A stretch of DNA of 64,000 bases from Tabrizicola sp. (GTDB taxonomy: Bacteria > Pseudomonadota > Alphaproteobacteria > Rhodobacterales > Rhodobacteraceae): positions 1 to 64,000 of the forward strand of contig NZ_JALHQD010000009.1 in assembly GCF_022842145.1 (NCBI RefSeq), written 5' to 3'. Of the stretch, positions 13,953 through 57,237 are shown one piece after another (the stretch's first letter is position 1; each line of letters starts with the position of its first letter). The notes beneath the pieces are model-generated. The model did no database searches. It saw only the letters and a list, made by a program, of their open reading frames with translations, and had not been told where the DNA came from. The position numbers and the translations under genes are program-made.

Positions 13953-14025
13953 GTTAACCGACGGTAAACGCCCGCAGCCAACCTCTTGATATCCTTGCCG
14001 GCGCAAAACGCACCACGCGTGGGCA
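13953..14025 (+). repeat. 73-nt structured intergenic element, copy A
   Basis: Blocks GTTAAC, CGCCCGCAG, CTTGA, CACGCG and GGGCA occur at offsets 1, 17, 33, 62 and 69, the same offsets as in copies B (39402) and C (57165). GCCCGC (offset 18-23) can pair with GTGGGC (offset 67-72) through one G-U. A perfect palindrome CCACGCGTGG lies at 14013-14022. The element ends 3 nt before the stop codon of mcl, which reads on the other strand. Function is unknown. Confidence 0.75.
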
Positions 14026-14028
14026 GGC

Positions 14029-15006
14029 CTACCCCGCCGCGATCTGCCGGGCTTTCTGGACCAGCACCTCCGCCTGCCGGATCGACGCATAATCGATCAG
14101 CCGCCCGTCCAGCGACACCGCGCCCTTGCCCTCGGCCGCCGCCTTCTCCATCGCCTCCAGAATCCGCTGCGCCCGCGTGACCTCAGCCTCCGACGGGCTC
14201 ATCACCTCGTTGGCCAGCGCGATCTGGCTGGGATGGATCGCCCACTTCCCCTCGCAGCCCAGAACCGCCGCCCGCTTCGCCGCGGCCCGGTACCCGTCGG
14301 GGTCCGAGAAGTCCCCGAACGGCCCATCGACCGGCCGCAGCCCGTTTGCCCGCGCCGCCACCACCATCCGGGCCAGCGCATAGTGCCACATATCGCCCCA
14401 GTGGACCGCGCGGCTGCCATCCTCCAGCGTGTCGGTCAGCACCGAATAATCCGGGTTCACCCCGCCGATGATCGTCGTCCGCGCCCGGGTCGAGGCCGCA
14501 TAGTCCGCCACCCCGAAGTGCAGGCTTTCATTCCGCTTCGACGCCCCGGCGATCTCGGTGACGTTCTGCATCCCCAACGCCGTCTCGATGATATGCTCGA
14601 ACCCGATCCGCTTCTTGTAGCCCTTCGCGTCCTCGATCTGCGTGACCATCATGTCGACCGCATAGACATCCGCCGCCGTCCCGACCTTCGGGATCATGAT
14701 CAGGTCCAGCCGCTCCCCGGCCTGCTCGACCACATCCACCACGTCGCGGTACATGAAATGGGTATCAAGCCCGTTGATCCGCACCGACATGGTCTTCTTG
14801 CCCCAGTCGAGCTCGTTCAGCGCCTTGATGATGTTCTTGCGCGCCTGCGCCTTGTCGTCCGGGGCGACGGCGTCTTCCAGGTCCAAGAAGATCACGTCTG
14901 CATCCGACGCGGCGGCCTTCTCGAACATCTGGGGGGCGCTGCCCGGAACGGCCAGCTCGCTGCGGTTCAGGCGCGCGGGGGCCTGCGTGATGACGTGGAA
15001 AGACAT
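14029..15006 (-). CDS. mcl: L-malyl-CoA / beta-methylmalyl-CoA lyase
   Basis: 325 residues of the HpcH/HpaI-CitE fold. Motifs include the N-terminal RSELAVPGSAP, the metal-binding VIFLDLEDAVAPDDK, and GGVNPDYSVL and GKWAIHPSQIALANEV near the C-terminus. The enzyme cleaves malyl-CoA to acetyl-CoA and glyoxylate, the last step of the serine cycle; in Rhodobacter relatives the same enzyme also handles beta-methylmalyl-CoA in the ethylmalonyl-CoA pathway. It lies divergently from sga-mtkAB-hprA-ppc-glyA, downstream of the NarL-type regulator. Its Shine-Dalgarno AGGAG is buried in a perfect 6-bp hairpin (15012-15028). The symbol could also be mclA or mcl1. Confidence 0.9.
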   Translation of the reverse strand: MSFHVITQAPARLNRSELAVPGSAPQMFEKAAASDADVIFLDLEDAVAPDDKAQARKNIIKALNELDWGKKTMSVRINGLDTHFMYRDVVDVVEQAGERLDLIMIPKVGTAADVYAVDMMVTQIEDAKGYKKRIGFEHIIETALGMQNVTEIAGASKRNESLHFGVADYAASTRARTTIIGGVNPDYSVLTDTLEDGSRAVHWGDMWHYALARMVVAARANGLRPVDGPFGDFSDPDGYRAAAKRAAVLGCEGKWAIHPSQIALANEVMSPSEAEVTRAQRILEAMEKAAAEGKGAVSLDGRLIDYASIRQAEVLVQKARQIAAG

Positions 15007-15011
15007 GTTGG

Positions 15012-15028
15012 GCTCCTAAGTCAGGAGC
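15012..15028 (-). promoter_or_regulatory. Hairpin sequestering the mcl ribosome-binding site
   Basis: On the minus strand GCTCCT-gactt-AGGAGC forms a perfect 6-bp stem with a 5-nt loop. The 3' arm contains AGGAG, 6 nt from the mcl start codon. The 5' arm is thus an exact anti-Shine-Dalgarno, which could limit translation. The structure is seen in sequence; regulation is inferred. Confidence 0.5.
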
Positions 15029-15087
15029 TGCACCCGCCTTACGCATCGGCGAAGCGAGCCCACTTCGTCAAGCCGGAAAATGCACGC

Positions 15088-15735
15088 CTACATCTCGCCG
15101 CGTGACGCGCGGTTGGAATAGTAGAACGCAATCGCCTGCGCGCGGTTCTTCACCGCCAGCTTCTCGAACAGGTTCGACAGGTGAAATTTCACCGTATTCG
15201 CGCTGATCTCCAGATCCCGCGCGAGTTCCCGGTTGGTCAGTCCCTTGGACAAAGCTTCCAGCAGGGTGCGTTCCCGTGGCGACAGCGCCTCGATCGGGTC
15301 CTGCTTCAGCCCGCGTATGTCCAGAAAGGGGAACACCATCTGCCCCTTCGCCACCGCCGCGCAGGTCTCCAGCAGCCGTTCCACCGATTCGGAGCGGGAG
15401 ACGAACCCCGCCGCCCCCGCCGCCATCGCCTTCCTAGGGATGTCACCGGTGTCCTCGGCATAGACCACCATCCGCGGTGCGTTCGCCTGCGTGCGCAGCA
15501 CATCGATCAGCCGCGCGCCGCCCAGGGCGGGCAGGTTCCAGTCGATCACGCCCACCTGCACCGGCATGCGCATCGCCATGCCCAGGAACCCCTCGGCGGT
15601 GGCAGCCGTCGCCACCAGAGAGAATCGGCGGTCCTTCTCGAAGATTTCGGACATCGCGGCCAGCATCAGCGGGTTCGCGTCCGCCAGCATCAGCGTTACC
15701 GCTACCACCTTCTGATCGTCATCCCAAAGTGCCAT
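15088..15735 (-). CDS. NarL/FixJ-type response regulator with atypical receiver
   Basis: 215 residues. An N-terminal receiver-like domain (about 12-130) is followed by a LuxR-type HTH (LSPRERTLLEALSKGLTNRELARDL, then ISANTVKFHLSNLFEKL). Asp65 (VGVIDWNLP) sits at the phosphorylation site, but the acidic pocket has only one Asp (LADAN), the Thr/Ser switch position is Ala (VVYAED), and the conserved Lys is not evident (GAAGFVSRS). It may therefore act without classical phosphorylation. It lies between mcl and the divergent serine-cycle operon, with an intergenic region full of inverted repeats, so it is the likely local regulator. No sensor kinase is adjacent. Confidence 0.8.
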   Translation of the reverse strand: MALWDDDQKVVAVTLMLADANPLMLAAMSEIFEKDRRFSLVATAATAEGFLGMAMRMPVQVGVIDWNLPALGGARLIDVLRTQANAPRMVVYAEDTGDIPRKAMAAGAAGFVSRSESVERLLETCAAVAKGQMVFPFLDIRGLKQDPIEALSPRERTLLEALSKGLTNRELARDLEISANTVKFHLSNLFEKLAVKNRAQAIAFYYSNRASRGEM

Positions 15736-16002
15736 TAGCCGCCCCTGACCCTACCCGTTCGGGCAGGTAACTTCGGTATACCGCTGCATATCCACCGTAT
15801 TGGGTAGGTTGAACCCCACCCAAATAGATATCCATTGGCAGGATATACGACTGTTGCGGGATTTGTCGACTGCCGCTTTCCTAAGCGTCAAGGACCAACG
15901 TCCAGGCAGACCCCGTGACACTTTCTTCCGCTGCACCCGGAAGCGTCGCAGGTCCCGCCCAGACGACGGTCCAAACGCCACAGGCCTTGGGAGGGGCGCC
16001 GC
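15736..16002. promoter_or_regulatory. Divergent control region of the serine-cycle island
   Basis: 267 nt between the regulator and sga. It contains the palindrome GGTATACC (15775-15782), a 24-nt imperfect inverted repeat with arms TTGGGTAGGTT and ACCCCACCCAA (15800-15823), and a perfect inverted repeat ATATCC-N7-GGATAT (15828-15846), with a further ATATCC at 15788-15793. CCCGTTCGGGC (15754-15764) recurs ahead of glcB. The sga ribosome site is GGGAGGGG before 16003. These are candidate operators for the NarL-type regulator; no promoter is assigned with confidence. Confidence 0.6.
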
Positions 16003-17250
16003 ATGACCGATACCGAACTTTTCCCCCAACTTGTCATTCCCGAGACTTTGGCCGCTGGCCCCGGTCCTGGCAACACCGACGCGAGGGTTCTGGCAAGCTT
16101 CGCCAACGCGGGCCTCGCCGACCACATGCAGGCCGACGTCCTGCGCGGCATGGTCGAATGCAAGCACATGCTGCGGCAGGTCTGGGGCACGAAGAACACC
16201 TACACCTTCGGCGTCGCCGGTACCGGTTGGAGCGGGCTTGACGCCCTCTTCTCCGCCATCCTGCCGGGCGACACGGTGGTCTGCTTCGTCAACGGCACCT
16301 TCTCCGGCATCGACGCTCTTACGGTCCGTACCCGGGCCGCGACGCGCGAGGATCTGAAGGCCAACGCGCTCGACCCCAAGCCCGCCAGCGTCACCGTCAT
16401 CCAGGTCCCGCACGGCCAGTCGGTCACGGCTGAAATCATCGAAAAAGCCCTGGCCCAGCACAAGCCGACCTGGGCCACGATGGCGCATTGGGAAACCGGT
16501 TCGGGCCGGATCAACGACATCCAGGGCTTCTCGGAGGCCTGCCTGAAGCACAACGTGATGGGCCTTGTCGACGCCGTCTCCTCGCTTGGGATCGAAGACT
16601 TCGCCATCGACGACTTCCCCGGCGTCGTCGGCTGGGCCTCCTGCCCGCAAAAGGGCGTCCTTTGCCTGCCCTTGACCTACGCCCCGGTCAGCTTCACCGA
16701 CCGCTACATCGCCCACCTGCGGGAAAACGGCTGCTACTCCTACGTCCACAACCCGATCTTCGAGGCCCGCCACTGGGGCATCGTCGACGGCAAGGACGTC
16801 GCAGCGGGCAGCTACCACCGCACCCATTCCGGCTACGCCGTCGCCGCCTTCCACGAGGCGCTGCGCATCAACCTCCAGCACGGCCGGGCCCAAAAGGCTG
16901 CCGACTACGCCCACCACGAGGCCGCCTTGCGTGCCGCCGTGCAGGCGCTTGGTTGCGAGGTCACGTCCAATATGACCAGCCTCGTCGTCCTGAACCTGCC
17001 CGGCGCGCTTGCTGGCCGCGAAAAGGAACTTGTGGCTGCAGCCCGTGCCAAGGGCTTTGGCATCTGGCCGACCCTGTCGGAGCCCGTGCAGGTCCGCATC
17101 GGCATCCTGAACCAACTCAGCGAAGCCGCGATCACCGAGATCGTGACACGCTTCGCCGCCGAGATGAACGCGATGGGCGCAAACGTCGACGTGGGCCAGG
17201 CGCTTGCCGCGCTGGAAACCCACTATGCCGCCGCCCTGGCCGCCGAATAA
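16003..17250 (+). CDS. sga: Serine-glyoxylate aminotransferase
   Basis: 415 residues, class V PLP aminotransferase. The PLP-binding lysine is Lys217 in SCPQKGVLCL. Other family features are GPGNTDARVLASFANAGLADHM near the N-terminus, the GTGWSGLDA loop, HWETGSGRIND and VDAVSSLG. It transfers the amino group of serine to glyoxylate, giving hydroxypyruvate and glycine. First gene of the plus-strand serine-cycle operon; mtkA starts 12 nt after its stop with a GGAGG ribosome site. Confidence 0.93.
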   Translation: MTDTELFPQLVIPETLAAGPGPGNTDARVLASFANAGLADHMQADVLRGMVECKHMLRQVWGTKNTYTFGVAGTGWSGLDALFSAILPGDTVVCFVNGTFSGIDALTVRTRAATREDLKANALDPKPASVTVIQVPHGQSVTAEIIEKALAQHKPTWATMAHWETGSGRINDIQGFSEACLKHNVMGLVDAVSSLGIEDFAIDDFPGVVGWASCPQKGVLCLPLTYAPVSFTDRYIAHLRENGCYSYVHNPIFEARHWGIVDGKDVAAGSYHRTHSGYAVAAFHEALRINLQHGRAQKAADYAHHEAALRAAVQALGCEVTSNMTSLVVLNLPGALAGREKELVAAARAKGFGIWPTLSEPVQVRIGILNQLSEAAITEIVTRFAAEMNAMGANVDVGQALAALETHYAAALAAE

Positions 17251-17262
17251 CGGGAGGAACCA

Positions 17263-18453
17263 ATGGACATCCACGAATATCAGGCCAAGGAAATCCTTGC
17301 CAAATTCGGCGTCGCCGTGCCCGCGGGCGCGCTGGCCTACAGCCCCGAACAAGCCGCCTACCGGGCGCGGGAACTGGGGGGCGACCGCTGGATCGTCAAG
17401 GCCCAGGTCCATGCCGGGGGCCGCGGCAAGGCGGGTGGCGTCAAGCTCTGCAACTCCGAACACGACATCCACGAAGCGACCGAAGGCATGTTCGGCCGCA
17501 AGATCGTGACGCATCAGACCGGCGCCGAAGGCAAGGGCATCTACCGCGTCTACGTCGAGGCCGCCGTCGCCTTCAACCGCGAGATCTACCTGGGCTTCGT
17601 CCTCGACCGTTCCTCGCAGCGTGTGATGATCGTCGCCTCCTCGGAAGGCGGGATGGAGATCGAGGAAATCTCGGCCTCGCGCCCCGACTCCATCGTCCGC
17701 TCCACGGTAGAACCCGCCGTGGGCCTGCAGGAATTCCAGGCCCGCGAGATCGCCTACAAGCTGGGCATCCCGGCTGCACTGACCCAGCAGATGGTCCGCA
17801 CCCTGCAGGGCTGCTACCGCGCCTTCCGCGACCTTGACGCGACGATGGTGGAAATCAACCCGCTGGTCATCACCGCAGACAATCGCATCCTCGCCTTGGA
17901 CGCGAAGATGACCTTCGACACCAACGCCCTCTTCCGCCACCCGCAGATCGCCGAGCTGCGCGACAAATCCCAGGAAGACCCGCGCGAAAGCCGGGCCGCC
18001 GACCGGGGTTTGGCCTACATCGGCCTGTCGGGCAACATCGGCTGCATCGTGAACGGCGCAGGGTTGGCGATGGCGACGATGGACACGATCAAGCTCGCCG
18101 GTGGTGAGCCCGCCAACTTCCTCGACATCGGCGGCGGCGCGACGCCGGAACGCGTAGCCAAGGCCTTCCGCCTGGTGATGTCGGACAAGAACGTGCAGGC
18201 GGTGTTGGTCAACATCTTCGCCGGCATCAACCGCTGCGACTGGGTGGCCGAAGGCGTCGTCCAGGCCCTGCGCGCCGAACCCGTGGACGTCCCCGTCATC
18301 GTCCGCCTCTCGGGCACCAACGTCGAGGAAGGCCAGAAGATCCTTGCGCAATCCGGCCTGCCGATCATCCGCGCCAACACGCTGATGGAGGCCGCCGAGC
18401 GGGCCGTGATCGCCTGGAAGAACGACCGCAAGCAACTGATGAGGGCCGTCTGA
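17263..18453 (+). CDS. mtkA: Malate-CoA ligase (malate thiokinase) beta subunit
   Basis: 396 residues, homologous to succinyl-CoA synthetase beta. It has an ATP-grasp domain ([16 protein letters not shown] start, [14 protein letters not shown] loop, EINPLVIT) and a C-terminal ligase domain ([31 protein letters not shown]). In serine-cycle islands this paralogue acts with MtkB to make malyl-CoA from malate, CoA and ATP. Position between sga and hprA and the presence of mcl favour MtkA over SucC. Its stop overlaps the mtkB start (TGATG). Confidence 0.92.
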
Positions 18454-19346
18454 TGAGCATCTTTCTCGACCGTACCAGCCGCGTTGTCGTCCAAGGCATC
18501 ACCGGCCGCATGGCGCAGTTCCACACCAAGGAAATGCTCGACTACGGCACCCAGGTCGTCGCGGGCGTGGTCCCGGGCAAAGGCGGCGAAACCGTCATGG
18601 GCATCCCGGTCTTCAACACGATGAAAGAAGCGGTGGAGGCGACCAGCTGCGACACCTCCCTCGTCTTCGTGCCGCCGCCCTTCGCTGCCGACAGCATCAT
18701 GGAAGCCGCCGACGGGGGCATCCGCTACTGCGTCTGCATCACCGATGGCATCCCGGCGCAGGACATGATCCGGGTGAAGCGCTACATGATGCGCTACCCC
18801 CGCGAACGCCGCATGGTCCTGACAGGCCCGAACTGCGCGGGCACCATCAGCCCCGGCAAAGCCCTGCTTGGCATCATGCCGGGCCACATCTACCTGCAAG
18901 GCAACGTCGGCATCGTCAGCCGCTCCGGTACCCTCGGCTATGAGGCCGCCCAGCAGCTGAAGGACCGGGGCATCGGCATCTCGACCTCGGTCGGCATCGG
19001 CGGCGACCCGATCAACGGCTCGTCGTTCCGCGACATCCTGGAACGGTTCGAGACCGACCCCGACACCCATATCGTCTGCATGATCGGCGAAATCGGCGGG
19101 CCGCAGGAAGCCGAAGCCGCCGAATACATCCAGAACCACATGTCGAAGCCCGTCATCGCCTATATCGCGGGCCTGACCGCACCCAAGGGCCGCACGATGG
19201 GCCACGCAGGCGCGATCATCTCTGCTTTCGGCGAAAGCGCCTCCGAGAAGGTGGAAATCCTGACCGCCGCCGGAGTGACCGTTGCCGAGAACCCCTCGGT
19301 CATCGGCGAAACGGTCGCCAAGGTCATGGCCAAGCGCGCCGCTTGA
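18453..19346 (+). CDS. mtkB: Malate-CoA ligase alpha subunit
   Basis: 297 residues, succinyl-CoA synthetase alpha-like. It has an N-terminal CoA-binding Rossmann domain ([20 protein letters not shown]), the ligase domain with [13 protein letters not shown] and [14 protein letters not shown], and the phosphohistidine loop GHAGAI near residue 250. Forms a heteromer with MtkA. Translationally coupled to mtkA through TGATG; hprA begins 20 nt after the stop. Confidence 0.92.
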
Positions 19347-19366
19347 AGCAAGGGAAGGGGAGGATG

Positions 19367-20335
19367 ATGTCGAAGCCCAAGGTCCTGGTCACGCGGCGCT
19401 GGCCGCAGGCTGTCGAAGCGCAGATGGCCGCGAACTTCGACGTCGACCTGAACAGCGCGGACAAGCCCATGACCGAGGCTGACTTCCGTCAGGCAATGAC
19501 CCGCTACGACGCCATCCTCCCCACCGTCACCGACAAGCTTCCGGCGGCTGTCTTCGATGCCAGCCCCCGGACCAAGATCCTTGCCAACTACGGCGTCGGC
19601 TTCGCACATATCGACACCCAGGCCGCCAAGGACCGGGGCATTGCCGTGACCAACACGCCCGACGTCCTGTCGGAATGCACCGCCGATATCGCGATGACGC
19701 TTCTCCTCATGGTCGCCCGCAGGGCAGGCGAGGGGGAACGCGAGCTTCGCGAAGGCCGCTGGACCGGCTGGCGTCCGACTCACCTGATCGGCACCAAGGT
19801 CTCTGGCGCCACCCTCGGAATCATCGGCTTCGGCCGCATCGGCCAGGCGATGGCCCAACGTGCGCATTTCGGCTTCGGGATGAAGATCATCGTCCAGAAC
19901 CGCTCACCGGTCCCGACCGACGTCCTCGCCCGCTACAACGCGACCCAGGTCGCCAGTATCGAGGACCTTCTTCCCGACTGCGACTTCGTCTCGCTCCATT
20001 GTCCCGGTGGCACCGCGAACCGTCACTTGATCAACGCCCGCCGTCTTGACCTGATGAAGCCCTCGGCCTTCCTCATCAACACCGCCCGGGGCGAGGTCAT
20101 CGACGAACACGCCCTCGCGCAGTCCCTCTGGTTCGGCACCATCGCTGGCGCCGGTCTCGACGTCTTCGAACGCGAACCCTCCGTCCCCGACGCCCTGCTC
20201 AATGCCGACAACCTTGTCCTCCTGCCGCACCTCGGCTCGGCCACCCGCGAAACGCGTGAGGCGATGGGCTTCCGCGTCCTGGAAAACCTGGCCGCCTTCT
20301 TCGATGGCCGTACCCCTCGCGACCGGGTGGCGTGA
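19367..20335 (+). CDS. hprA: Hydroxypyruvate/glyoxylate reductase
   Basis: 322 residues from the ATG at 19367; an ATG at 19364 is immediately adjacent, with the GGGGAGG site at 19357-19363. D-isomer-specific 2-hydroxyacid dehydrogenase fold. The nucleotide loop is GFGRIGQAMA, followed by QNRS, whose Arg suggests some NADPH acceptance. Catalytic Arg in NTARGEVIDE, Glu in DVFEREP and His in LPHLGSATRE are all visible. It reduces hydroxypyruvate from Sga to D-glycerate. ppc starts one base after its stop, so the two are tightly coupled. Confidence 0.9.
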   Translation: MSKPKVLVTRRWPQAVEAQMAANFDVDLNSADKPMTEADFRQAMTRYDAILPTVTDKLPAAVFDASPRTKILANYGVGFAHIDTQAAKDRGIAVTNTPDVLSECTADIAMTLLLMVARRAGEGERELREGRWTGWRPTHLIGTKVSGATLGIIGFGRIGQAMAQRAHFGFGMKIIVQNRSPVPTDVLARYNATQVASIEDLLPDCDFVSLHCPGGTANRHLINARRLDLMKPSAFLINTARGEVIDEHALAQSLWFGTIAGAGLDVFEREPSVPDALLNADNLVLLPHLGSATRETREAMGFRVLENLAAFFDGRTPRDRVA

Positions 20336-20336
20336 C

Positions 20337-22991
<2,655 letters not shown>

Positions 22992-23009
22992 CCCATAGGA
23001 GTTTCCCCC

Positions 23010-24305: not shown

Positions 24306-24309
24306 AAGC

Positions 24310-24386
24310 TGGTAGGCCCGGAGGGACTCGAACCCCCAACCAAGGCGTTATGAGCGCCCTGCTCTAACCAATTGAGCTACAGGCCC
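24310..24386 (-). tRNA. tRNA-Ile2 (CAU anticodon)
   Basis: 77-nt cloverleaf on the minus strand with encoded CCA. The acceptor is GGGCCTG / CGGGCCT with G-U pairs at the first and sixth positions. The anticodon loop CTCATAA gives CAU, and the T loop is GGTTCGAGTCC. The stem GGGCG/CGCCT and the CTTGGT variable region resemble E. coli ileX rather than elongator or initiator tRNA-Met. Its C34 would be modified to lysidine by TilS to read AUA. Confidence 0.85.
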
Positions 24387-24501
24387 GTAGCGGCTCCTTG
24401 CCTACCAGAACCGGGCGAGGGGTCAAGCGGGCCTCGTTGCACCCTTGCGGGCAATCGTCTATGCGGGCCGCAAGATCGATTCCGCGCGAAAGGGCAGTCA
24501 G

Positions 24502-25548: not shown

Positions 25549-26135
25549 AACGCGTCGCCATCCTGATTTCCGGGGGTGGCTCGAACATGCTGGCATTGGT
25601 GCGCGACATGGCGGGCGACCATCCCGCGCGTCCCGTGCTTGTCGCCTCGAACGACCCCGCCGCGACGGGATTGGAGAAGGCCGCGGCCCTTGGCATCCCG
25701 GTTGCCGCCATCGATCACCGCGCCTTTGGCCGCGACCGCGAGGCTTTCGAAGCCGCGCTCGCCGAAAAGATCGATGCCGCCAGCCCCGACATCCTTTGCC
25801 TTGCCGGTTTCATGCGCATCCTGACCCCCGGCTTCATCCGCCGCTACGAGGGGAGGATGCTGAACATCCACCCCTCCCTCCTCCCGAAATACCCCGGCCT
25901 GCACACCCACGCCCGTGCCCTTGCCGCGGGGGACACCGAGGCGGGCTGCGCCGTCCACGAAGTCACTGCCGAACTGGACGCCGGCCCCATCCTTGGCCAG
26001 GCGCGCCTCCCCGTCCTGCCGGGGGATACCGAGGCTGCGCTGGCGGCCCGCGTCCTCACTCTCGAGCACCGGCTTTATCCAAAGGTCCTGCGCCGCTTTG
26101 CGACCGGCGACCGCACCCCGGTCCTCTTAGACTGA
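25545..26135 (+). CDS. purN: Phosphoribosylglycinamide formyltransferase
   Basis: 196 residues with a GTG start inside the purM stop (GTGA). GAR transformylase motifs: [32 protein letters not shown] with catalytic Asn/His, and the Asp in [10 protein letters not shown]. Uses 10-formyl-tetrahydrofolate, so it draws on the same C1 pool as the nearby glyA. It overlaps the convergent DUF454 gene by 9 bases. Confidence 0.95.
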
Positions 26136-27776: not shown

Positions 27777-27825
27777 TCGCGCGTCGTGAACCTCTTCACT
27801 CCGCGTCGTGACGAGAAGCCTTCCG

Positions 27826-29147: not shown

Positions 29148-29151
29148 CCTC

Positions 29152-39401: not shown

Positions 39402-39474
39402 GTTAACAAACTCCTAACGCCCGCAGACAACCCCTTGAAATCAAACGCCCCGCGAAGCTGCCCACGCGCGGGCA
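39402..39474 (+). repeat. 73-nt structured intergenic element, copy B
   Basis: Same five blocks at the same offsets as copy A, about 70% identical ungapped by hand count. GCCCGC (offset 18-23) pairs perfectly with GCGGGC (offset 67-72). It ends one base before the glcB stop codon (glcB reads on minus). The rest of the 211-nt gap 39265-39475 holds only the presumed promoter of the DUF1963 gene. Confidence 0.75.
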
Positions 39475-39475
39475 C

Positions 39476-47660: not shown

Positions 47661-47678
47661 CGGGTCACCCTTGTTGAA

Positions 47679-47713
47679 TGACCGTACAGTAAGTGGGGCG
47701 CGCCTTGAGTCAA
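47679..47713 (-). promoter_or_regulatory. Promoter and overlapping operator of the demethylation operon
   Basis: On the minus strand TTGACT (47708-47713), a 16-nt spacer and TACTGT (47686-47691) form a promoter about 25 nt before the start at 47660. An imperfect palindrome TGACCGTACAGTAA (47679-47692) centred on GTAC covers the -10 and suits a TetR dimer, probably the BetI-like protein of this operon. Confidence 0.5.
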
Positions 47714-47717
47714 GCGT

Positions 47718-49214
47718 TCAGAAAGGCAGGGACAGCTGGGCCTGCGGGGGTTTCTTCACCGGTCGCCGCCCCTCGCGGTTGCCGGATCGGCTGGCATGGC
47801 GCTGGACGATCTGACCGGCCACTTCGGCAAACCCTGCCGACTTGCGGGCAGACCAGATCAGGTCCCGCGCCTCACGTGCGGCAGAGGCCACGTCGATAAT
47901 CGGCTCTGGGTAGCGGTGACCCAGCAGCCGCCGCGCCTCGGGCCAGAGCCAGGGTTCCTGCAGGAAAGCGTCCGGCACCGCGGCCAGTTCGGGTAGCCAG
48001 CGCCGGGTGAATGCGCCCGTTGGGTCCTGGTCCAGCCCCTGTTTCACCGGGTTGTAGATCCGGGGGATGTTGATCCCCGTCGTCCCAGACTGCATCTGCA
48101 CCTGCGGCCAGTGGATGCCGGGCTCGTAATCGGTGAACATCCGCGCCAGATGCGCGCCGGTCGCCCGCCAATCCAGCCACAGGTGATAGGAGGCGACCGA
48201 AATCACCATCGCCCGCATCCGGAAGTTCAGCCACCCCGTCGCCCGTACATAGCGCAGGCAGGCATCCAAGAACGGCAACCCGGTTTCGCCATTCTCCCAA
48301 GCCGCAAGACGCGCCGCATCCGTCTCGCGCGGTCGTGTCACCGCCACGGGATGCAGGTCACGCAGTTCGATGGAGGGCTGGTCCTCCAGCTTTTGCATGA
48401 AGTGGTCCCGCCAGGCCAGCCGCGACTGAAAGCTGGACAGCGATCCGCCCCACCTGCTACCCGGCTTTTCCGCCTGCCGCGCCGCCGTAGCCTGCACCAC
48501 CTCGCGGATGGAGAGCGACCCCAAAGCGAAATGCGGGGACAGCCGCGAACAGGCCCGCTCGGCCGACAGGGGGGAGGACATGGCCACCCGGTAAGGCTCG
48601 CCCCGGCGGCTGAGGAAGGTCTCCACCAACTCCAGCCCGCGAGCGCGCCCGCCAAGCTGGCGGTGCGGGCAGGGGTCGGGTGCCAGCTTCAACGCGCGGG
48701 CCGTCGGGATCAGCCCCGGTTCCACCCCCGCCAACGCGCGAAGGGCAGGGACGGGCAGCACCGGCCGAGCCATGAACCCGTCCCGGCTGGCCGCCCAGAT
48801 GTCCCGCGTCGGCAAGCGGCGCACCACGCCCGACTGCGGGACTTCCACCCACTCCACCCCAGCGCCTTTGGCCCAAGCGGCAACCCGCCGGTCGCGGCCG
48901 TAGGTCCAGAGGTTCCCGGTCTCTTCATGGCTGACGATGCGGGTGATCCCGTGCCGCTGGCACAGACCTGCCAGCACCTGAACCGCATCGCCCACCCGCA
49001 CAACCAGCGGCGCGCCGATGCCGCCCAAAGCTTCCCGCAGGTCCACCAGGGATTCCGCCACCAGATCCCACTGGCGGGCCGAGGCGTCCGGCTGCAACCA
49101 CAGGTCAGGCTCGACCACATAGACTGGCAGCACCGACCCCAGCTCTGCGGCCAGCGTCAGCGCCGGATGGTCGTGGATGCGCAGGTCGCGCTTGAGCCAG
49201 ACGAGAACATTCAT
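47718..49214 (-). CDS. phr: Deoxyribodipyrimidine photolyase / cryptochrome family protein
   Basis: 498 residues. An N-terminal alpha/beta photolyase domain (VLVWLKRDLRIHDHPAL) is followed by a C-terminal FAD-binding domain (WGGSLSSFQSRLAWRDHFMQKL, GETGLPFLDACLRYVRATGWLNFRMRAMV, ARMFTDYEPGIHWPQVQMQSG). It repairs UV pyrimidine dimers with light or acts as a cryptochrome; sequence alone does not separate these. No Fe-S Cys cluster typical of the CryB/PhrB group is obvious. It ends just upstream of the demethylation promoter. Confidence 0.88.
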   Translation of the reverse strand: MNVLVWLKRDLRIHDHPALTLAAELGSVLPVYVVEPDLWLQPDASARQWDLVAESLVDLREALGGIGAPLVVRVGDAVQVLAGLCQRHGITRIVSHEETGNLWTYGRDRRVAAWAKGAGVEWVEVPQSGVVRRLPTRDIWAASRDGFMARPVLPVPALRALAGVEPGLIPTARALKLAPDPCPHRQLGGRARGLELVETFLSRRGEPYRVAMSSPLSAERACSRLSPHFALGSLSIREVVQATAARQAEKPGSRWGGSLSSFQSRLAWRDHFMQKLEDQPSIELRDLHPVAVTRPRETDAARLAAWENGETGLPFLDACLRYVRATGWLNFRMRAMVISVASYHLWLDWRATGAHLARMFTDYEPGIHWPQVQMQSGTTGINIPRIYNPVKQGLDQDPTGAFTRRWLPELAAVPDAFLQEPWLWPEARRLLGHRYPEPIIDVASAAREARDLIWSARKSAGFAEVAGQIVQRHASRSGNREGRRPVKKPPQAQLSLPF

Positions 49215-49328
49215 GGAACATAGATGTAGTCAGCCGCGGGGATTCGTAAAGCGGCAAACGACTGTTACCGGCCTCCCCCTTGCGCCGCGCGCCATTCCCC
49301 GTAGCTTCTGTAACAAATGGAGCGCCCA

Positions 49329-51890
49329 ATGACCGAGCAGAAGACCGTCCATCTTTCCGACTACCAACCCTTCACCCACCTGCTCGAAAGCGTGGACCTG
49401 ACCTTCCGGCTTGCTCCTTCGGCGACGCGTGTGTCGACCCGGCTTCAGCTTCGCCCGAACCCGCAGCGCCCCGGACGCCATGACCTGCGCCTGGATGGCG
49501 AGGGGCTGACGCTGATCTCCTGCACGGTCAACGGCGCACCAGTGACGCCCACGGTGGACGACCAGTCCCTGACCCTCGCCGCCAAGGACCTGCCCGACGC
49601 CCCGTTCACGCTGGAAACCGAAGTCGAAATCGCACCCGAGGCGAACACCGCCCTTGAAGGCCTTTACATGTCCAAGGGCATGTACTGCACCCAGTGCGAG
49701 GCCGAGGGCTTTCGCAAGATCACCTACTACCCCGATCGCCCCGACGTCATGTCCCGCTTCAAGGTGCGGATCGAATCCGACCTGCCGATCCTCTTGTCCA
49801 ACGGCAATCCCACCGGGCAGGGCAAAGGCTGGGCCGAGTGGGACGATCCCTGGCCGAAGCCCGCCTACCTCTTCGCCCTCGTGGCAGGCGACCTGCGTGC
49901 CCATTCCGCCAAGTTCACCACGGCCTCGGGTCGCCCGGTCGACCTGAACATCTGGGTCCGACCGGGCGATGAGGACCGCTGCGCCTATGCGATGGACAGC
50001 CTGATCCGCTCGATGCGCTGGGATGAACAGGTTTACGGCCGGGAGTACGATCTGGACGTCTTCAACATCGTCGCCGTCGATGACTTCAACATGGGAGCGA
50101 TGGAGAACAAGGGGCTGAACATCTTCAACTCCCGCTACGTCCTCGCCTCGCCCGAAACCGCCACCGACGACGACTATTATCGGATCGAGGCGATCATCGC
50201 CCATGAATACTTCCACAACTGGACCGGCAACCGCATCACCTGCCGCGACTGGTTCCAGCTGTGCCTCAAGGAAGGCCTGACCGTCTTCCGCGACCACCAG
50301 TTTTCCGGCGACATGCGGTCGGCGGCAGTCCGTCGGATCGAGGATGTCGTCACCCTGCGCAGCCGCCAGTTCCGCGAGGATGACGGTCCGCTGGCCCACC
50401 CAGTGCGTCCCGAAAGCTTCATCGAGATCAACAACTTCTACACCGCCACCGTCTACGAGAAGGGGGCCGAGGTCATCGGGATGCTCAAGTCGCTGGTCGG
50501 CGACGGCGCCTACAAGCGCGCGCTCGACCTTTACTTCGACCGCCACGATGGGGATGCGGCCACCATCGAGGACTGGCTCAGGGTCTTCGAGGATGTGACC
50601 GACCGCGACCTGTCCCAGTTCAAGCTCTGGTATTCCGAAGCCGGCACCCCCCGCCTGAAAGTCGAGGAGGGCTGGGACGAAGGCGTCTATACGCTGACGT
50701 TCACCCAGAAAAACCCGCCGACGCCGGGCCAGCCGGAAAAGCAGCCCAAGGTCATTCCGATCAAGGTGGGCCTTCTGAACCCCAATGGCGATGAAGTCGT
50801 GCCGACGATCATGCTGGAGATGACCCGCGCCAGGCAGTCCTTCCGCTTTGACGGGCTGGCGGCCAAGCCCGTGCCCTCCATCCTCCGCGGGTTCTCGGCA
50901 CCGGTGGTGCTGGACCGCAAGCCTGTGCCCGGGGAACGCGCCTTTCTTCTGGCCCACGACACCGACCCGTTCAACAAGTGGGAAGCAGGCCGGGCGCTGG
51001 CCAAGGAAGTCATGGCCGAAATGGCGCTGAAAGGCACGCCGGTGCGGCCCGACTGGCTGGATGCACTTGCCGCCGTCACCTTCGACGCCACCCTTGATCC
51101 CGCCTTCCGCGCGCTTTGCCTGCGATTGCCGGGCGAAGATGACATTGCCCAGACCATCCACGCGATGGGCCGTATTCCGGACCCCGCCAAGATCCACGCC
51201 GCCCGGCGCGAGATGGCAGGGGCGCTGTCGATCCGGCTTGGGGACGGAGTATCCAGGCTTTACAAAGAGCTGGATGACAACGCGCCCTTCTCGCCCTCGG
51301 CCGCCCAGGCCGGCCGCCGGGCTTTGAAGATTGCAGCCCTCCAGCTTCTGACGCGCCGTGACGGTGGCAAGCTCGCCGCCTCGGCCTTTGCCCGCGCTCG
51401 CAGCATGACCGAAGAGATCGGTGCTCTGGCGGCCCTGCTTGATGTCCATCAGGGCCAGCCGGAACTGACCAGCTTTGCCGCGCGCTGGGCCCGGGATCCG
51501 AACGTGATGGACAAGTGGTACGCGCTTCAGATCGTCACGGCCGAACCCGGCGACGCCGCCGCCGTTGCTGCCCGACTGATCCAGACGCCCGGCTTCGACT
51601 GGAAGAACCCCAACCGCTTCCGCACGATCATCGGGGCGCTGGCTGCCAACCACGCCGCCTTCCACCACCGCTCGGGCTCAGGATACCAGTTCGTTGCCGA
51701 CTGGCTATTGAAGCTTGATCCCCTGAACCCGCAGACCTCGGCCCGCGTCTCCACCGCGTTCGAGACCTGGCCCCGCTATGATGCGGTGCGGCGCAAGCGC
51801 GCAAGGAAGGAACTGGAACGGATGCTGGCGGTCCCCGATCTATCGGGCGACCTTCGTGAGATGGTGGAGCGAATGCTGTCGGCAGGCTGA
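49329..51890 (+). CDS. pepN: Aminopeptidase N (M1 family)
   Basis: 853 residues from MTEQKTVHLSDYQPF. The ATG at 49329 is chosen over 49317 because GGAG precedes it with 6-nt spacing. Motifs: exopeptidase GAMENKG, zinc HEYFHNWTGNR with the third ligand Glu in LKEGLTVFRDHQF, and the four-domain length of E. coli PepN. A broad cytoplasmic aminopeptidase. Convergent with the transglycosylase-like gene; the 107-nt gap shows nothing clear. Confidence 0.94.
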   Translation: MTEQKTVHLSDYQPFTHLLESVDLTFRLAPSATRVSTRLQLRPNPQRPGRHDLRLDGEGLTLISCTVNGAPVTPTVDDQSLTLAAKDLPDAPFTLETEVEIAPEANTALEGLYMSKGMYCTQCEAEGFRKITYYPDRPDVMSRFKVRIESDLPILLSNGNPTGQGKGWAEWDDPWPKPAYLFALVAGDLRAHSAKFTTASGRPVDLNIWVRPGDEDRCAYAMDSLIRSMRWDEQVYGREYDLDVFNIVAVDDFNMGAMENKGLNIFNSRYVLASPETATDDDYYRIEAIIAHEYFHNWTGNRITCRDWFQLCLKEGLTVFRDHQFSGDMRSAAVRRIEDVVTLRSRQFREDDGPLAHPVRPESFIEINNFYTATVYEKGAEVIGMLKSLVGDGAYKRALDLYFDRHDGDAATIEDWLRVFEDVTDRDLSQFKLWYSEAGTPRLKVEEGWDEGVYTLTFTQKNPPTPGQPEKQPKVIPIKVGLLNPNGDEVVPTIMLEMTRARQSFRFDGLAAKPVPSILRGFSAPVVLDRKPVPGERAFLLAHDTDPFNKWEAGRALAKEVMAEMALKGTPVRPDWLDALAAVTFDATLDPAFRALCLRLPGEDDIAQTIHAMGRIPDPAKIHAARREMAGALSIRLGDGVSRLYKELDDNAPFSPSAAQAGRRALKIAALQLLTRRDGGKLAASAFARARSMTEEIGALAALLDVHQGQPELTSFAARWARDPNVMDKWYALQIVTAEPGDAAAVAARLIQTPGFDWKNPNRFRTIIGALAANHAAFHHRSGSGYQFVADWLLKLDPLNPQTSARVSTAFETWPRYDAVRRKRARKELERMLAVPDLSGDLREMVERMLSAG

Positions 51891-51997
51891 CTTGGCAGCA
51901 CGGCACGGAAGCTGCGCGCCGCTGATGTCCAAGGGGCCAGCAGTGAGGATGCGCATCGACTCGCCGGATCGCCCGGCGTTCAAGGATCAGTCAGGCG

Positions 51998-52591
51998 TTA
52001 CGAGGCCTTGCAATAGGGCTGCTGACGGGTCCACTCGGCCATTGCCGACCGCTTCTCGCTGGACCGCAGGGGTGCCCAGTCGCGACCGATGCCGCGGTTG
52101 CCGCCACCAGCCACCAGCCCGTCCTTGGCCACTTGCGTCGACATGATCTCGACCGCGCATTCCAGGTTCTGCTCGCCGTCCTTCAGCGCGTTCACCGAAG
52201 TGGCCTCGCAGCCGTAGTTCGCTGCCGAACGCGGGTCGATCTGCATCAGTCCGATCCAGCGCCCACCGCCGCCCGAGGCGCGTTCGTTCCATGTGCTTTC
52301 GTACTTGGCCACGGCCGACAGAAGGCCCGCCCAGAATGCGCGGCGCTCTTCGACCGAGGCTTCGGCATAGCCGGGGCACCAGGTTTCGATGTCGGCAGGC
52401 ACGCGTTCGGACAGAACCTGATCCTTGCTTGACAGCGCCGTCAGCGTTGATTCGGTCCATTCATTGGCCTCGGGGTGGTGGTCCCACTGCATCGGAGGCG
52501 CGATGAAGGACATCGCCTCATCGGGTTTGGTCTGGACACATCCGACCAGCGAAGCAGTTGCCAGTACACCGAAAATCACACGCAGAAGCAT
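51998..52591 (-). CDS. Lytic transglycosylase-like lipoprotein
   Basis: 197 residues. Signal with lipobox SLVGC (Cys18). An SLT-like domain is suggested by AKYESTWNERASGGGGRWIGLMQIDPRSA, with Glu as the presumed acid catalyst, then NLECAVEIMSTQV and C-terminal WAPLRS. Four Cys in the mature part could form two disulfides. Probably attacks peptidoglycan at the outer membrane; family call by motif only. Divergent from the unknown gene at 52692. Confidence 0.75.
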   Translation of the reverse strand: MLLRVIFGVLATASLVGCVQTKPDEAMSFIAPPMQWDHHPEANEWTESTLTALSSKDQVLSERVPADIETWCPGYAEASVEERRAFWAGLLSAVAKYESTWNERASGGGGRWIGLMQIDPRSAANYGCEATSVNALKDGEQNLECAVEIMSTQVAKDGLVAGGGNRGIGRDWAPLRSSEKRSAMAEWTRQQPYCKAS

Positions 52592-52691
52592 TACGAGGTC
52601 ACCTGAAGATCACTGCATTTCCATTTTTCCGCCCTGATCATTGGTCACTTTTAACCTTGAACGGGCGAAACCAGCCCGGAGGGGCGAGTCG

Positions 52692-53897
52692 ATGCTAGTT
52701 ACACCGTCGTTGTTGCACGTGAAAACCCGCACAGGCCGCAGTCAGCAAGAAGACGCCGTCCTCTTGCGGCTTCAGGCTGGCTCGACCCTGGACATGCTGG
52801 ACGGATTGACCGCCGATCAGGTGCTTTCGCGGATCGATGTGCCGGTGATGCGCGCGGGACCGGAAAAGACCGAATGGCAATGCGTCCGCGACGATCACGC
52901 CGCGATGGCCGCCGCGGGGGAATGGACGGACCTTCTGGAAGCCCTGCGCTACACCGACCAGGAGCGGGTGATGGCCTCGGGCGGGCGGCGCGTGGCACCC
53001 CTGATCAGCGACGGGATGCGGGCGGGCCTTTCCAGCGCGATCTCGCATGGCGACTGGGTGGCCGCACGGGCCGAACTGGCGGTGCTGGAAGACGTCTACG
53101 ACCGCAATTCCGAGGACTACTGTGCCGCACAGGTATTGGCACAGGCCCATGTCGATCTGGCCAACGCCAAACGCAACCCGACGGCGGCCTCGCTGTCGCG
53201 TGACGCCTGGGCCGAGGCCGCGGCGCATTTTGTGGCGGCTGAGGACCTGGTGACCCTCTTCGACCCCATCGAGGAGATGTCGCCGCTTCTGGCCGCGACC
53301 CGCTATGCTCTGGTCCCGGGGATCGAGGATGGCGGCGCTGTCTGCCGCGAATGGTACGAAGACTGGGTCGATCTTGACCCCGAGGATGCAGCCGTCCACG
53401 CCGCGCATGCGGTGAACATGCTGCCGGGCTGGTACGGCTCGCTGTCGGCTTTCGAACGCGAGGCCCGCCGCGCGGTCCGGTTGACCGAAGGCCTGACCGG
53501 CAAGTCCGCCTACGCCATCTACCACATCGCCGCGATCGAGACGTTCGGTGACCTGTCACCGACCCTTGACCATGAGTACTTCTTCGAAGCTTTGGCCGAC
53601 TATCAGTCCGCGACGGGCTGCCAGGTTCGGGCCAATGTCGCGGCGCATCTTCTGTCCGGCATGGCGATGGGCTTCCGCAAGGCAGGACCCACCGCCGCCT
53701 GGCACCTGACAAAGACCCGCGCCGCGCTGTCCGATGTGTTGTGGAACCGTCTGCGCGAAATCCAGCTGGACTGCTGGGACACCGGCAACCAGGCCCTCGC
53801 TTTCGCGATGGCCGAAGTCTTCGGGCCCGCCCTGAAACGCGGTGCGCGGATCGTGCGGCGCGGTGACGGCCTCGGCACTCTCGTCCGCAGAACCTGA
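52692..53897 (+). CDS. Conserved unknown helical protein
   Basis: 401 residues from [15 protein letters not shown], supported by GGAGGGG upstream of the ATG at 52692; the frame is open from 52641. No signal peptide or membrane helix. Mostly helical, Ala-rich, with Trp-containing motifs ([33 protein letters not shown]) that look TPR-like or DUF4034-like, but I make no family call. Stands alone between a divergent lipoprotein gene and gatB. Confidence 0.7.
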
Positions 53898-53964
53898 CGA
53901 CCCGACCCCTTGCCCTGTCGGTCCTTGCGGCCTAAACCGCCTCAAGACCACTCGGAGGCACTCC

Positions 53965-55476
<1,512 letters not shown>

Positions 55477-55482
55477 CTCCGG

Positions 55483-55579
55483 GGGGCCAAGACTTTTCGA
55501 GAAGTCCTGCAAGATCTTTCGAAGGATTTTGACCCGACCTGTTTTTCAACTGGCGCGCTTTTGCCGGCAAAAGTCTTGG
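55483..55579. repeat. Degenerate hairpin repeat after gatB
   Basis: Begins GGGGCCAAGACTTTT, matching the start of the 7906 element except for one base in 15. It has an imperfect hairpin CAAGACTT/AAGTCCTG and a 10-bp hairpin CAAGATCTTT/AAGGATTTTG that needs G-U pairs. A perfect 11-bp inverted repeat, CCAAGACTTTT (55487-55497) / AAAAGTCTTGG (55569-55579), encloses the whole. Probably a terminator-like relative of the 7906 element. Confidence 0.65.
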
Positions 55580-55641
55580 TGATTTGCGCTATGCGTCGGA
55601 ATCTCCTATCACTTCCGCAATTCGTGCCTGGGAGCAACCCG

Positions 55642-56022
55642 ATGCAGCGTTTCGAGTTCAAAGTCATTCCGGCCCCCAAGCGGGGCGAAAAGGCGCGGGG
55701 GGTCAAGACCACCGAAGACCGCTTTGCCTATGCGCTGACCACGCTGATGAATCAGCTCGGGGACGAGGGCTGGGACTATGTCCGCGCCGACTCGCTGCCC
55801 TGCGAAGAGCGGTCCGGGTTCACCGGGACCAAGACCACCTTCCAGAATGTTCTCGTCTTCCGTCGGGCCGTTGAGGTGAGTGCAATGGAAGCTCTGCAGG
55901 CGTCGCGCCTTCTCTTGCAACAGCCAGTGCCGACCACTCCGCGCCTTGGCCCGGCCGAGGCACCCACACCGGGCAATGCCCCTGCGGTCGGTCCGGCGAA
56001 ATCCGACCTCGCGGCCGAGTGA
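55642..56022 (+). CDS. DUF4177 domain protein
   Basis: 126 residues from MQRFEFKVIPAPKRG, with GGGAG upstream of the ATG at 55642. The N-terminal 75 residues match DUF4177 (FEFKVIPAP, LGDEGWDYVRADSLPCEER, NVLVFRR). The C-terminal tail is Ala/Pro-rich and probably disordered. Function unknown. Its stop abuts the hisC stop on the other strand. Confidence 0.8.
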   Translation: MQRFEFKVIPAPKRGEKARGVKTTEDRFAYALTTLMNQLGDEGWDYVRADSLPCEERSGFTGTKTTFQNVLVFRRAVEVSAMEALQASRLLLQQPVPTTPRLGPAEAPTPGNAPAVGPAKSDLAAE

Positions 56023-57123
56023 TCAGCCGGCCGCAACCAGAGCCTGTGGCAAGGTTTCTTCAAGGATATCCATCGTCTGGTCATCCCCCAGGCTGATGCG
56101 GATGCAACGATCAAGCGGGGCCACCCCCGGCATGCGGATGAACACGCCGCGGCTGCCCAGTTCGGTCAGAACCTTCCGCGCATGGTCAACGTCCCGCCCG
56201 CACTCGATGGTGACGAAATTGGTGGCCGAGGGCAGGGGGCGCAAGCCGTTCGCCCGGGCGATGGCCGAAAGCCGGTCCCGCGCTTTGACCGTCCGGTCCT
56301 GCACAGTTTTCAGCCAACCCTGATCCCTCAGCGCCGCCAGCGCCCCCGCCTGGCTGATCCGGCTCATCCCGAAATGATCGCGCACCTTGTCGAAAGCCAG
56401 TGCCAGATCGGGGTTGGTGATCGCGTAGCCGACCCGGGCCCCGGCCAGCCCGTAGCCTTTGGAAAACGTGCGCATGCGGATCACCTGCGGATGGTCGGCC
56501 GGGATGGTCGGGACCGTGCCTGCGGGCGCGAGGTCGGCGTAAGCCTCGTCCAGGATCAGGAGCGTGTGGTCGGGCAGGTTCGCCACCATGTCCTCGACGA
56601 CCGAGGCGGGGTGGTGGCTGCCCATCGGGTTGTCGGGGTTGGCCAGGTAGATCAGTTTCGCGCCGGTGGATCGGGCGGCTGCAAGCAGGGCGTCGGGGTC
56701 CTCGTGGTCGCCCTTGTAGGGGACGCGGGTCAGCAGGCCGCCGTAGCCTGCGACGTGGAAATTGAAGGTCGGGTAGGCTCCGAGGGAGGTCACGACCGGG
56801 GTGCCCGGCTCCAGCGTCAGGCGGCAGATCAGGCCGAGGAGGCCGTCGATGCCGGGACCGACCGCGATATGGGCCGGGGGCACGCCGTGGTGGGCGGCGA
56901 GGGCCTGCTTGAGGTCGTGGTTCTCCGGGTCGCCGTACATCCAGGCCTCGCTTGCAGCCGCCTTCATCGCGGCGACGGCGCGGGGGGAGGGGCCGAAGAG
57001 GCTTTCGTTCGCGCCGAGGCGGCCACGGAAGGGGGTGCCGGAGCGGCGCTCCAGCGTCTCGGGGCCGGTGAAGGGGACGGTAGAGGGGAGCTGGGCGGCG
57101 TGGGGGGTCAGGAAGCGGGTCAT
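56023..57123 (-). CDS. hisC: Histidinol-phosphate aminotransferase family protein
   Basis: 366 residues from MTRFLTPHAAQLPST; the upstream extension to 57204 crosses a repeat element. Fold-type I PLP aminotransferase: GANESLFGPSP, YLANPDNPMGSHH, LDEAYADL, and PLP Lys in MRTFSKGYGLAGARVGYA. HisC converts histidinol phosphate and 2-oxoglutarate; HisC-like paralogues can also act on aromatic amino acids, so the exact substrate is uncertain. It lies downstream of valS on the same strand. Confidence 0.85.
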   Translation of the reverse strand: MTRFLTPHAAQLPSTVPFTGPETLERRSGTPFRGRLGANESLFGPSPRAVAAMKAAASEAWMYGDPENHDLKQALAAHHGVPPAHIAVGPGIDGLLGLICRLTLEPGTPVVTSLGAYPTFNFHVAGYGGLLTRVPYKGDHEDPDALLAAARSTGAKLIYLANPDNPMGSHHPASVVEDMVANLPDHTLLILDEAYADLAPAGTVPTIPADHPQVIRMRTFSKGYGLAGARVGYAITNPDLALAFDKVRDHFGMSRISQAGALAALRDQGWLKTVQDRTVKARDRLSAIARANGLRPLPSATNFVTIECGRDVDHARKVLTELGSRGVFIRMPGVAPLDRCIRISLGDDQTMDILEETLPQALVAAG

Positions 57124-57164
57124 GGCGGCAGGCTGGCACGGGTCAGGGCGGCAGGCAAGGGGGC

Positions 57165-57237
57165 TGCCCGCGCGTGGACACTTGCTGAGCCCAAGCCTTT
57201 TCAAGGGCTTGGCTGCGGGCGTTCAGGAATCGTTAAC
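57165..57237 (-). repeat. 73-nt structured intergenic element, copy C
   Basis: Minus-strand copy with the five blocks at offsets 1, 17, 33, 62 and 69 exactly as in copies A and B. GCCCGC/GCGGGC pair perfectly, and an inner 7-bp hairpin CCAAGCC-N8-GGCTTGG is present. It lies between the valS stop and the hisC start, in the direction of both genes, 42 nt before hisC. Confidence 0.75.

Follow-up and report, generated by a model that had tools for sequence, protein, structure and literature searches.

What is a 73-nt sequence that stands three times between the genes of one stretch of bacterial DNA? The stretch, which we call the window, comprises positions 1–64,000 of contig NZ_JALHQD010000009.1 from Tabrizicola sp., and the copies lie at 13953–14025 (+), 39402–39474 (+) and 57165–57237 (-) (copies A, B and C). 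They had been noticed in a sequence-only reading of the window, and we confirm all three. The element belongs to a family with a common anatomy; many of its sites are inherited vertically at orthologous gene ends, its palindrome is spelled in dialects that differ between genomes, and its copies are spread more evenly than chance would place them. The explanation that we favour, with a probability of about one half, is a DNA-level chromosomal site that would be bent by IHF and resembles the RIB/BIME elements of Escherichia coli, with a dialect palindrome read by a hypothetical factor.

A family of the genus and some relatives

Copies A and B agree at 51 of 73 positions in a gap-free count, close to the earlier estimate of about 70%, B and C at 50, and A and C at 45. 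The near-fixed spacing of the conserved blocks holds up as well: a core pattern with up to three mismatches has three matches in the window where 0.27 are expected, and none of 100 shuffles reaches three. The CACGCGNGGGCA end by itself, with one mismatch, is at chance level there (6 matches, 5.3 expected). The whole genome (G000; 4.33 Mb, 18 contigs) has 54 matches to the core pattern and none to its reversed control. A covariance model built from these 54 (R1) gives 119 matches at E≤1, 111 of them with E<0.006; the set of 110 own copies used below leaves out L188 (above 0.005), L189 (0.013) and a second match in L149.

Searching relatives with a covariance model, a check proposed along with the sequence-only reading, reveals further copies in 30 of the 31 other sampled genomes of the genus. 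G002 has none, G027, G014 and G028 have 3, 5 and 6, and many others have at least 79. Outside the genus, R1 matches 2 of 29 genomes, both weakly. Counts per genome are lower bounds, taken from the best 150 candidates in one genome, the best 79 in 61 genomes and the best 16 in 295. Exact 23-mer matches occur in Tabrizicola thermarum, Rhodobacter calidifons and metagenome-assembled genomes of Rhodobacteraceae and Rhodobacterales. R2, a broader model that uses sequence alone, detects 105 sites in G016, the second genome studied closely. Applied to a family-wide draw of 295 genomes, with the best 16 candidates per genome, it matches at least 17: G000, G001 and 15 of the 293 genomes of other genera, of which G083 and G286, with one match each, are unconvincing when read. 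Some of the genes on the hairpin side of the element are common to several genera: the gene lies 5 nt from the element in G123, 7 nt in G077 and 63 nt in G301, and G328 provides another case. Judging from their sequences, we take these to be glcB (G123), a response regulator (G077), an aminotransferase (G301) and a citramalate-synthase-like gene (G328). A scan of viral contigs gave three contigs; the palindrome is followed by the element in L397, which may be host DNA, and by no element in L396 and L398.

Anatomy of the element

Read away from the adjoining gene, the element consists of an inverted repeat, a spacer of about 20 bp, the block WWTCAANNNNTTR, a G-rich stretch and a direct repeat, TTMR-N7-TTAA-S. 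The block resembles the IHF consensus, WATCAAnnnnTTR, as given in PMC10380432. With the 110 own copies aligned on the block itself, the successive positions read W (A46/T48), A51/T43 (where the consensus has A), T84, C98, A99, A93, four free positions, T93, T99 and R (G86/A11). The consensus WATCAANNNNTTR is matched exactly in 41 of the 110 copies and within one mismatch in 90 (flanking positions, 3e-6 and 5e-5), which suggests that IHF may bind the box. The distance between palindrome and box is identical in 39 of 40 G016 copies with an exact palindrome. In G000, 42 of 54 copies have their palindrome centre 27–28.5 nt beyond the CTTGA block, and among the 29 of 110 copies whose inverted repeat has at least six Watson–Crick pairs it lies at -26.5 to -28 in 21. 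These two counts are measured; in the set of 110, by contrast, the palindrome start was taken from the core block or the model match, so that its value of 35 in 96 of 110 copies is partly built in.

The outer part of the element had been likened to a CtrA-type box, and the CtrA site is TTAA(N7)TTAA (PMC6180460). The 11-bp direct repeat TTMR-N7-TTAA is indeed conserved, but the exact TTAA-N7-TTAA is present in just 2 of 110 copies in G000 and 1 of 40 in G016, with TTNN-N7-TTAA in 55 and 22, respectively. A CtrA-like box, of the response-regulator type, is thus a fair lead for this part. The CenR box, TGA-N8-TGA (PMC9275681), was rejected, as the direct repeat has different letters. GANTC is found in 23 of 110 G000 elements, compared with 13 and 12 of 110 flank windows, and in 11 of 40 G016 elements, compared with 3 and 4 of 40. 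Its position is not fixed; the commonest place accounts for 8 of 110 and 4 of 40 copies. We also observe that in six G016 copies (L279, L287, L294, L299, L306 and L308) the GCCCGC block is replaced in place by A/T-richer letters such as GGAAAC, GAAATC and GGATTTC.

Placement and inheritance

Genes were called with a simple hexamer caller trained on G000; starts are therefore approximate, and calls in G016 and other genera less certain. Of the 110 own copies, 45 lie between convergent genes, 28 and 31 in the two tandem arrangements and 2 between divergent genes, and 4 overlap called genes; with transcription units judged from the gene calls, 104 copies are situated past the end of one or both neighbouring genes. 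In 73 copies the hairpin-side gene points to the element, its stop codon lying within 4 nt in 52 and within 10 nt in 62. It reads away in 33, and in 23 of these the palindrome precedes the start by 37–81 nt. For G016, 40 loci were selected by exact palindrome, out of 63 such sites and from 50 listed places: 19 are convergent, 10 and 5 tandem, 4 divergent and 2 overlapping, and of the 29 hairpin-side genes that point to the element, 19 stop no more than 4 nt from it. Among 26 loci of other genera, 13 have a hairpin-side gene in this direction that stops no more than 10 nt away.

Many of these sites are inherited in place. Counting the own copies, R1 places an element after the glcB stop codon in 21 of the genus's 30 loci (from 29 genomes) and after that of 10 of 15 close mcl orthologs. 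Comparison of G016 with G000 shows that 22 of the 40 G016 copies share hairpin-side gene and strand with an own copy, some at nearly equal distance, while the gene on the opposite side may differ; the other 18 have no same-gene, same-strand partner among the 110. Some copies 5' of genes lie at matching distances from the start codon in G000 and G016 (69 and 66, 75 and 76, 58 and 59 nt).

Palindrome dialects

The inverted repeat exists in two principal spellings, an odd form TGTCCACSGTGGACA (TGTCCA-N3-TGGACA) and an even form TGCCCRCGCGYGGGCA (TGCCCA-CGCG-TGGGCA), and for the most part a genome has exact copies of just one of them. Ten genomes (G005, G008, G009, G011, G016, G018, G022, G023, G025 and G026) have 46–96 exact odd copies each and no exact even copy, save one in G018. 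Exact even copies number 32 in G010, 22 in G012, 13 in G000 (with 6 odd), 12 in G021, 6 in G030 and 3 in G001. Intermediate odd counts are found in G020 (25), G017 (21) and G031 (12), none with even copies, and in G029 (17 odd, 2 even); G015 has 2 even and 1 odd, and the remaining genomes have 0–7 odd and no even copies. The dialect of the own genome is loose, since exact even copies make up 13 of about 111 and many copies are degenerate. G024 carries both dialects and is a possible intermediate, and a third spelling inside the genus, TGTCCC...GGGACA, is seen in G007 (L123, L247).

A glcB DNA tree was built for 21 genomes, with the mixed G024 entered as odd and six genomes without a label. Odd and even genomes are interspersed on it, with four changes, at least two of them forced by well-supported branches; shuffled labels give as low a number in 278 of 500 trials. 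The even G000 stands beside the odd G008 with support 96/83. The sharing of arms by many scattered copies, while the spacers diverge, points to sequence-specific recognition. Genome-wide changes of spelling between species are likewise a feature of the DNA uptake sequences of Neisseriaceae, which have far more copies than this element.

Pairing in the element

The sequence-only reading had proposed a conserved long-range stem between columns 18–23 and 67–72. This stem does not survive the larger alignment: across 54 own copies 86.4% of cells are paired, and so are 86.4% with shuffled partners, while shuffles score 0.125 for covariation and the stem itself 0.113. The pairing can be drawn in copies A, B and C, and it exceeds registers slid by one to three columns (20.7–56.2% paired), as expected of any stem read off a consensus. 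Columns 19 and 71 contain two double-changed cells, but the stem as a whole is not above the shuffles, and at column 22 an A faces C in 12 of 54 copies. The GGGC arm is in fact part of the local inverted repeat beside the gene.

The local inverted repeat has 69.7% of cells paired (65.1% in shuffles) and 25 double-changed cells (16.3 in shuffles); the numbers of pair types and of pairs with double changes are not above shuffles, the even and odd forms being misaligned there. Stems of at least 5 bp occur in 64% of G000 copies and 30% of shuffles, and they are kept alike 5' and 3' of the hairpin-side gene (61% of 33 and 67% of 73 copies, with a null of 30%). Among 20 G016 copies without an exact palindrome, 95% have such stems compared with 21% in shuffles; 11 keep both arms and differ in the 3-nt loop alone, and 9 show changes in the arms. 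The centre base is G on the gene strand in all 40 exact G016 copies, though other genomes also have copies with C there. Beyond the genus, 19 of 26 loci have at least six effective Watson–Crick pairs (one pair being deducted where the loop is shorter than 3), compared with 1.3% in shuffles, with different letters. Where two copies could be read in a genome of another genus (11 genomes), the spelling is the same in 6 (in G230 up to the centre base) and different in 5.

No Rfam family reaches its gathering score over the element, in keeping with the earlier remark that no named family was recognised in it; copy A has only matches below gathering and at chance level. A single family scores above gathering in 10 more loci: PYLIS_3, whose match lies outside the element. 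This match (own contig C4, L021 62–161 (+); 45 bits, gathering 38), to a motif of pyrrolysine insertion in mttB, is odd for a genome of Rhodobacteraceae and perhaps reflects mere sequence homology of an MttB gene.

Spacing along the chromosome

Copies are more evenly spread than expected by chance in two genomes, at a mean distance of about 35 kb. The contigs of G000 differ less in copy density than a Poisson process would let them (chi-square 1.15, 12 degrees of freedom, lower tail 3e-5). The Fano factor is 0.72, 0.65, 0.55 and 0.43 at 20, 40, 80 and 120 kb, below that of every one of 400 nulls; at 160 kb it is 0.42 (0.005). The underdispersion persists when just the 87 strongest own matches are used and contig totals are kept (fractions 0, 0, 0.005 and 0). 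G016, for which the ends of some contigs were set from the last match, has Fano factors of 0.73, 0.62, 0.43, 0.41 and 0.41 at 20–160 kb, equalled by at most 0.002 of 500 nulls, and a mean gap of 33.8 kb. A strict period is not supported by the coefficients of variation of the gaps (0.81 in G000, 0.66 in G016), which indicate an arrangement only more even than random.

The three copies in the window

Copy A (R1 E 5.7e-20) begins with its direct-repeat box of the TTMR-N7-TTAA type, the putative CtrA-like part (13954–13968, -), followed by the IHF-consensus box TATCAAGAGGTTG (13979–13991, -), which matches WATCAANNNNTTR exactly by the consensus of PMC10380432, and ends with the imperfect palindrome GCACCACGCGTGGGCA (14010–14025, no strand assigned). 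In copy B (E 5.4e-24) the corresponding parts are a direct-repeat box at 39403–39417 (-), the IHF-like box TTTCAAGGGGTTG with one mismatch at 39428–39440 (-) and the palindrome TGCCCACGCGCGGGCA at 39459–39474 (no strand). Copy C (E 4.5e-22), which represents a second class of placement, has its palindrome TGTCCACGCGCGGGCA at 57165–57180 (no strand), its IHF-like box TTTCAAGGGCTTG, again with one mismatch, at 57199–57211 (+) and its direct-repeat box at 57222–57236 (+).

Copies A and B had been placed within four bases of the stop codons of mcl and glcB. The distances stand: the palindrome of copy A ends 3 nt before the stop codon (14029) of a convergent, mcl-like gene, and that of copy B ends 1 nt before the glcB stop codon (39476). 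The product names stand in part, with glcB, like valS, above a curated NCBIfam cut-off, but 'mcl' above none; its Pfam family is HpcH/HpaI lyase. Copy C sits between valS and a pyridoxal-phosphate (PLP) aminotransferase gene (56023–57123, -), with its palindrome 41 nt before the start of the latter. Its position before this gene was correctly read, but the name hisC was not, as the product passes the cut-off of PRK08153 (PLP aminotransferase) and falls below that of hisC. Just one Rfam family reaches its gathering score anywhere in the window, at a tRNA gene at 24313–24386 (-) (RF00005, 67.5 bits).

Comparison with known repeats

RIB or RIP elements of E. coli (BIME-1) resemble the element described here: they combine a repeated palindrome with an IHF site, and their many copies lie where transcription units have their 3' ends (PMC2817692; PMC7826290, which cites Boccard and Prentki 1993). 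The corresponding putative IHF site matches the consensus strongly in G000 and more weakly in G016. The layout differs, with one inverted repeat here and a direct repeat on the other side, whereas a RIB has two opposed REPs flanking the IHF site. Here, moreover, there is an additional 11-bp direct-repeat box, no constant GTAG tag and no RAYT found in 32 genomes of the genus, and there are species dialects at orthologous sites; the even spacing may be a further difference. By eye, no constant GTAG or GGAG tag adjoins the palindrome in 54 G000 and 40 G016 copies. REP/REPIN–RAYT systems share with the element many extragenic copies and a genome-specific hairpin sequence (PMC2817692); the element differs by its long conserved non-palindromic part and its many vertically inherited sites. 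A REP/RAYT system is not supported, since PF01797 (Y1_Tnp) is above cut-off in 0 of 32 genus genomes, with two weak matches below, while a control was positive in 5 of 14 known genomes.

Correia repeats (NEMIS) are likewise short and almost exclusively intergenic, the 155-bp form having an IHF site (PMC2229807), but they duplicate their target and end in inverted repeats of 24 bp. Nothing of the latter kind was seen by eye in our alignments A1 and A4, where the conserved ends are the palindrome and TTAAC instead. The CIR of Caulobacter and other alphaproteobacteria are intergenic repeats conserved between species (PMC2229807); they were rejected because of their conserved GANTC sites, which occur here in 23 of 110 and 11 of 40 elements with no fixed place. 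The CGTC-tagged REPs of alphaproteobacteria are palindromic repeats without a dedicated transposase (PMC3733652), with an unpaired tag, whereas CGTC was seen here, by eye and with no dedicated search, just in the paired arm of some other-genus copies (such as those of G230, G095 and G089). Among the matches listed in open-access PMC full text, judged by titles and the starts of abstracts, there was no description of the element; subscription journals are mostly uncovered there, and an earlier description is possible.

What the element may be

Stop-codon adjacency is more readily explained at the level of RNA: a hairpin after the stop may set or protect the 3' end of the mRNA that precedes it, or help to terminate transcription with IHF as a roadblock. 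Such a role agrees with stop codons no more than 4 nt away in 52 of 73 copies of the own genome (with the core block giving the position) and 19 of 29 copies of G016 (palindrome itself measured), with arms that pair across genera (19 of 26 loci), with the 11 of 20 non-exact G016 copies in which the loop alone changed, and with a gene-strand G at the centre of all 40 exact copies, C-centred copies elsewhere notwithstanding. It does not account for the 33 of 110 own and 9 of 40 G016 copies whose hairpin-side gene reads away, some of them at equal start-codon distance in both genomes. Few T residues follow the hairpin (means of 2.64 of 8 in G000 and 2.20 of 8 in G016, with at least five in 10 of 110 and 3 of 40), and no terminator was called at copy B, the sole copy scanned; on these weak T-runs an intrinsic terminator is not supported. 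RNA-fold z-scores of four sequences range from -0.54 to 0.22; together with the lack of an Rfam family at gathering score over the element, they also leave the small RNA of the sequence-only reading without support. For a pure exonuclease block, the shared arm sequence, the IHF box and the even spacing would be superfluous. We consider a role at mRNA 3' ends unlikely on balance. An old non-autonomous mobile repeat (REP- or MITE-like, attL- or oriT-like) that had a single phase of spread and has since been inherited in place, its dialects reflecting turnover by some enzyme, seems to us a minority possibility of similar weight. High copy number, intergenic placement and the 18 of 40 G016 copies without a same-gene, same-strand partner in G000 favour it, and the succession of inverted repeat, IHF box and direct repeats resembles the layout of phage attachment sites. 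Correia repeats and RIBs also combine a palindrome with an IHF box (PMC2229807, PMC2817692). This suggestion of the sequence-only reading is retained as a rival, but many copies are inherited in place (22 of 40 sites common to two species at gene level), no Y1/RAYT transposase was found above cut-off in a search not extended to other transposases, relaxases or recombinases, no terminal inverted repeats were seen, the palindrome changed while the sites stayed, and spacing is even.

A regulatory site for a CtrA-type response regulator and IHF, acting on an adjacent promoter, would explain the conserved direct repeat and the 33 of 110 copies that have their palindrome in front of a gene start (in 23 at 37–81 nt). 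With 45 of 110 copies between convergent and 2 between divergent genes, and exact TTAA-N7-TTAA in just 2, we regard it as quite improbable. The RNA reading misses the 5' copies, the IHF box and the spacing, and the mobile reading lacks an enzyme and ill fits inheritance in place; we therefore favour a nucleoprotein site at the DNA level. At such a site, IHF or a close relative would bind the WATCAANNNNTTR box and bend the DNA, which would bring the gene-proximal inverted repeat and the CtrA-like direct-repeat box together. A trans-acting factor would read the inverted repeat sequence-specifically, with a specificity that differs between lineages, hence the same arms in many copies of a genome. 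The sites, at boundaries of transcription units, may serve chromosome topology or nucleoid organisation; their position and even spread fit the role proposed for E. coli RIB/BIMEs. Gyrase is reported at BIME-2, yet gyrase and IHF sites are negatively associated (PMC6379681).

Several observations weigh against this DNA-level site. The factor reading the palindrome is hypothetical, and none was found; the adjacency to stop codons is better served by RNA. The inverted repeat of G000 is degenerate: 36% of 110 copies have stems below 5 bp, at least six Watson–Crick pairs are found in 29 of 110 compared with 10 of 110 shuffled, and covariation of the outer pairs is weak (pairs 1–3, shuffle fractions 0.02–0.05) or absent (pairs 4–5). 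G016 follows the IHF consensus less closely (7 of 40 copies match it exactly and 22 of 40 with at most one mismatch), divergent gaps are not entirely avoided there (4 of 40), and two genomes mix dialects (G024 with 33 odd and 8 even, G000 with 6 odd and 13 even). The Fano factor of G000 at 240 kb (0.51) is not significant (0.125), and its gap coefficient of variation by itself is 0.81 against 0.92 (p 0.07). The spacing null places copies uniformly and not at gene ends, and G000 and G016 are not independent tests, because many sites are orthologous.

A bolder version of the nucleoprotein site, which we hold tentatively and as less probable than the site itself, is a new chromosome-organising class of about 100 evenly spaced, vertically inherited IHF-bent sites per genome whose palindrome dialect is read by a fast-changing DNA-binding protein and re-spelled in place as lineages diverge. 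If true, an alphaproteobacterial family would have chromosome-wide architectural sites like the RIB/BIMEs of E. coli, evolving by concerted re-spelling of the palindrome at orthologous sites. Coevolution of protein and DNA, or of protein and hairpin, would then be directly testable at genome scale, and the elements would offer ready probes for links among IHF, supercoiling domains and gene ends in non-pathogenic, laboratory-tractable bacteria.

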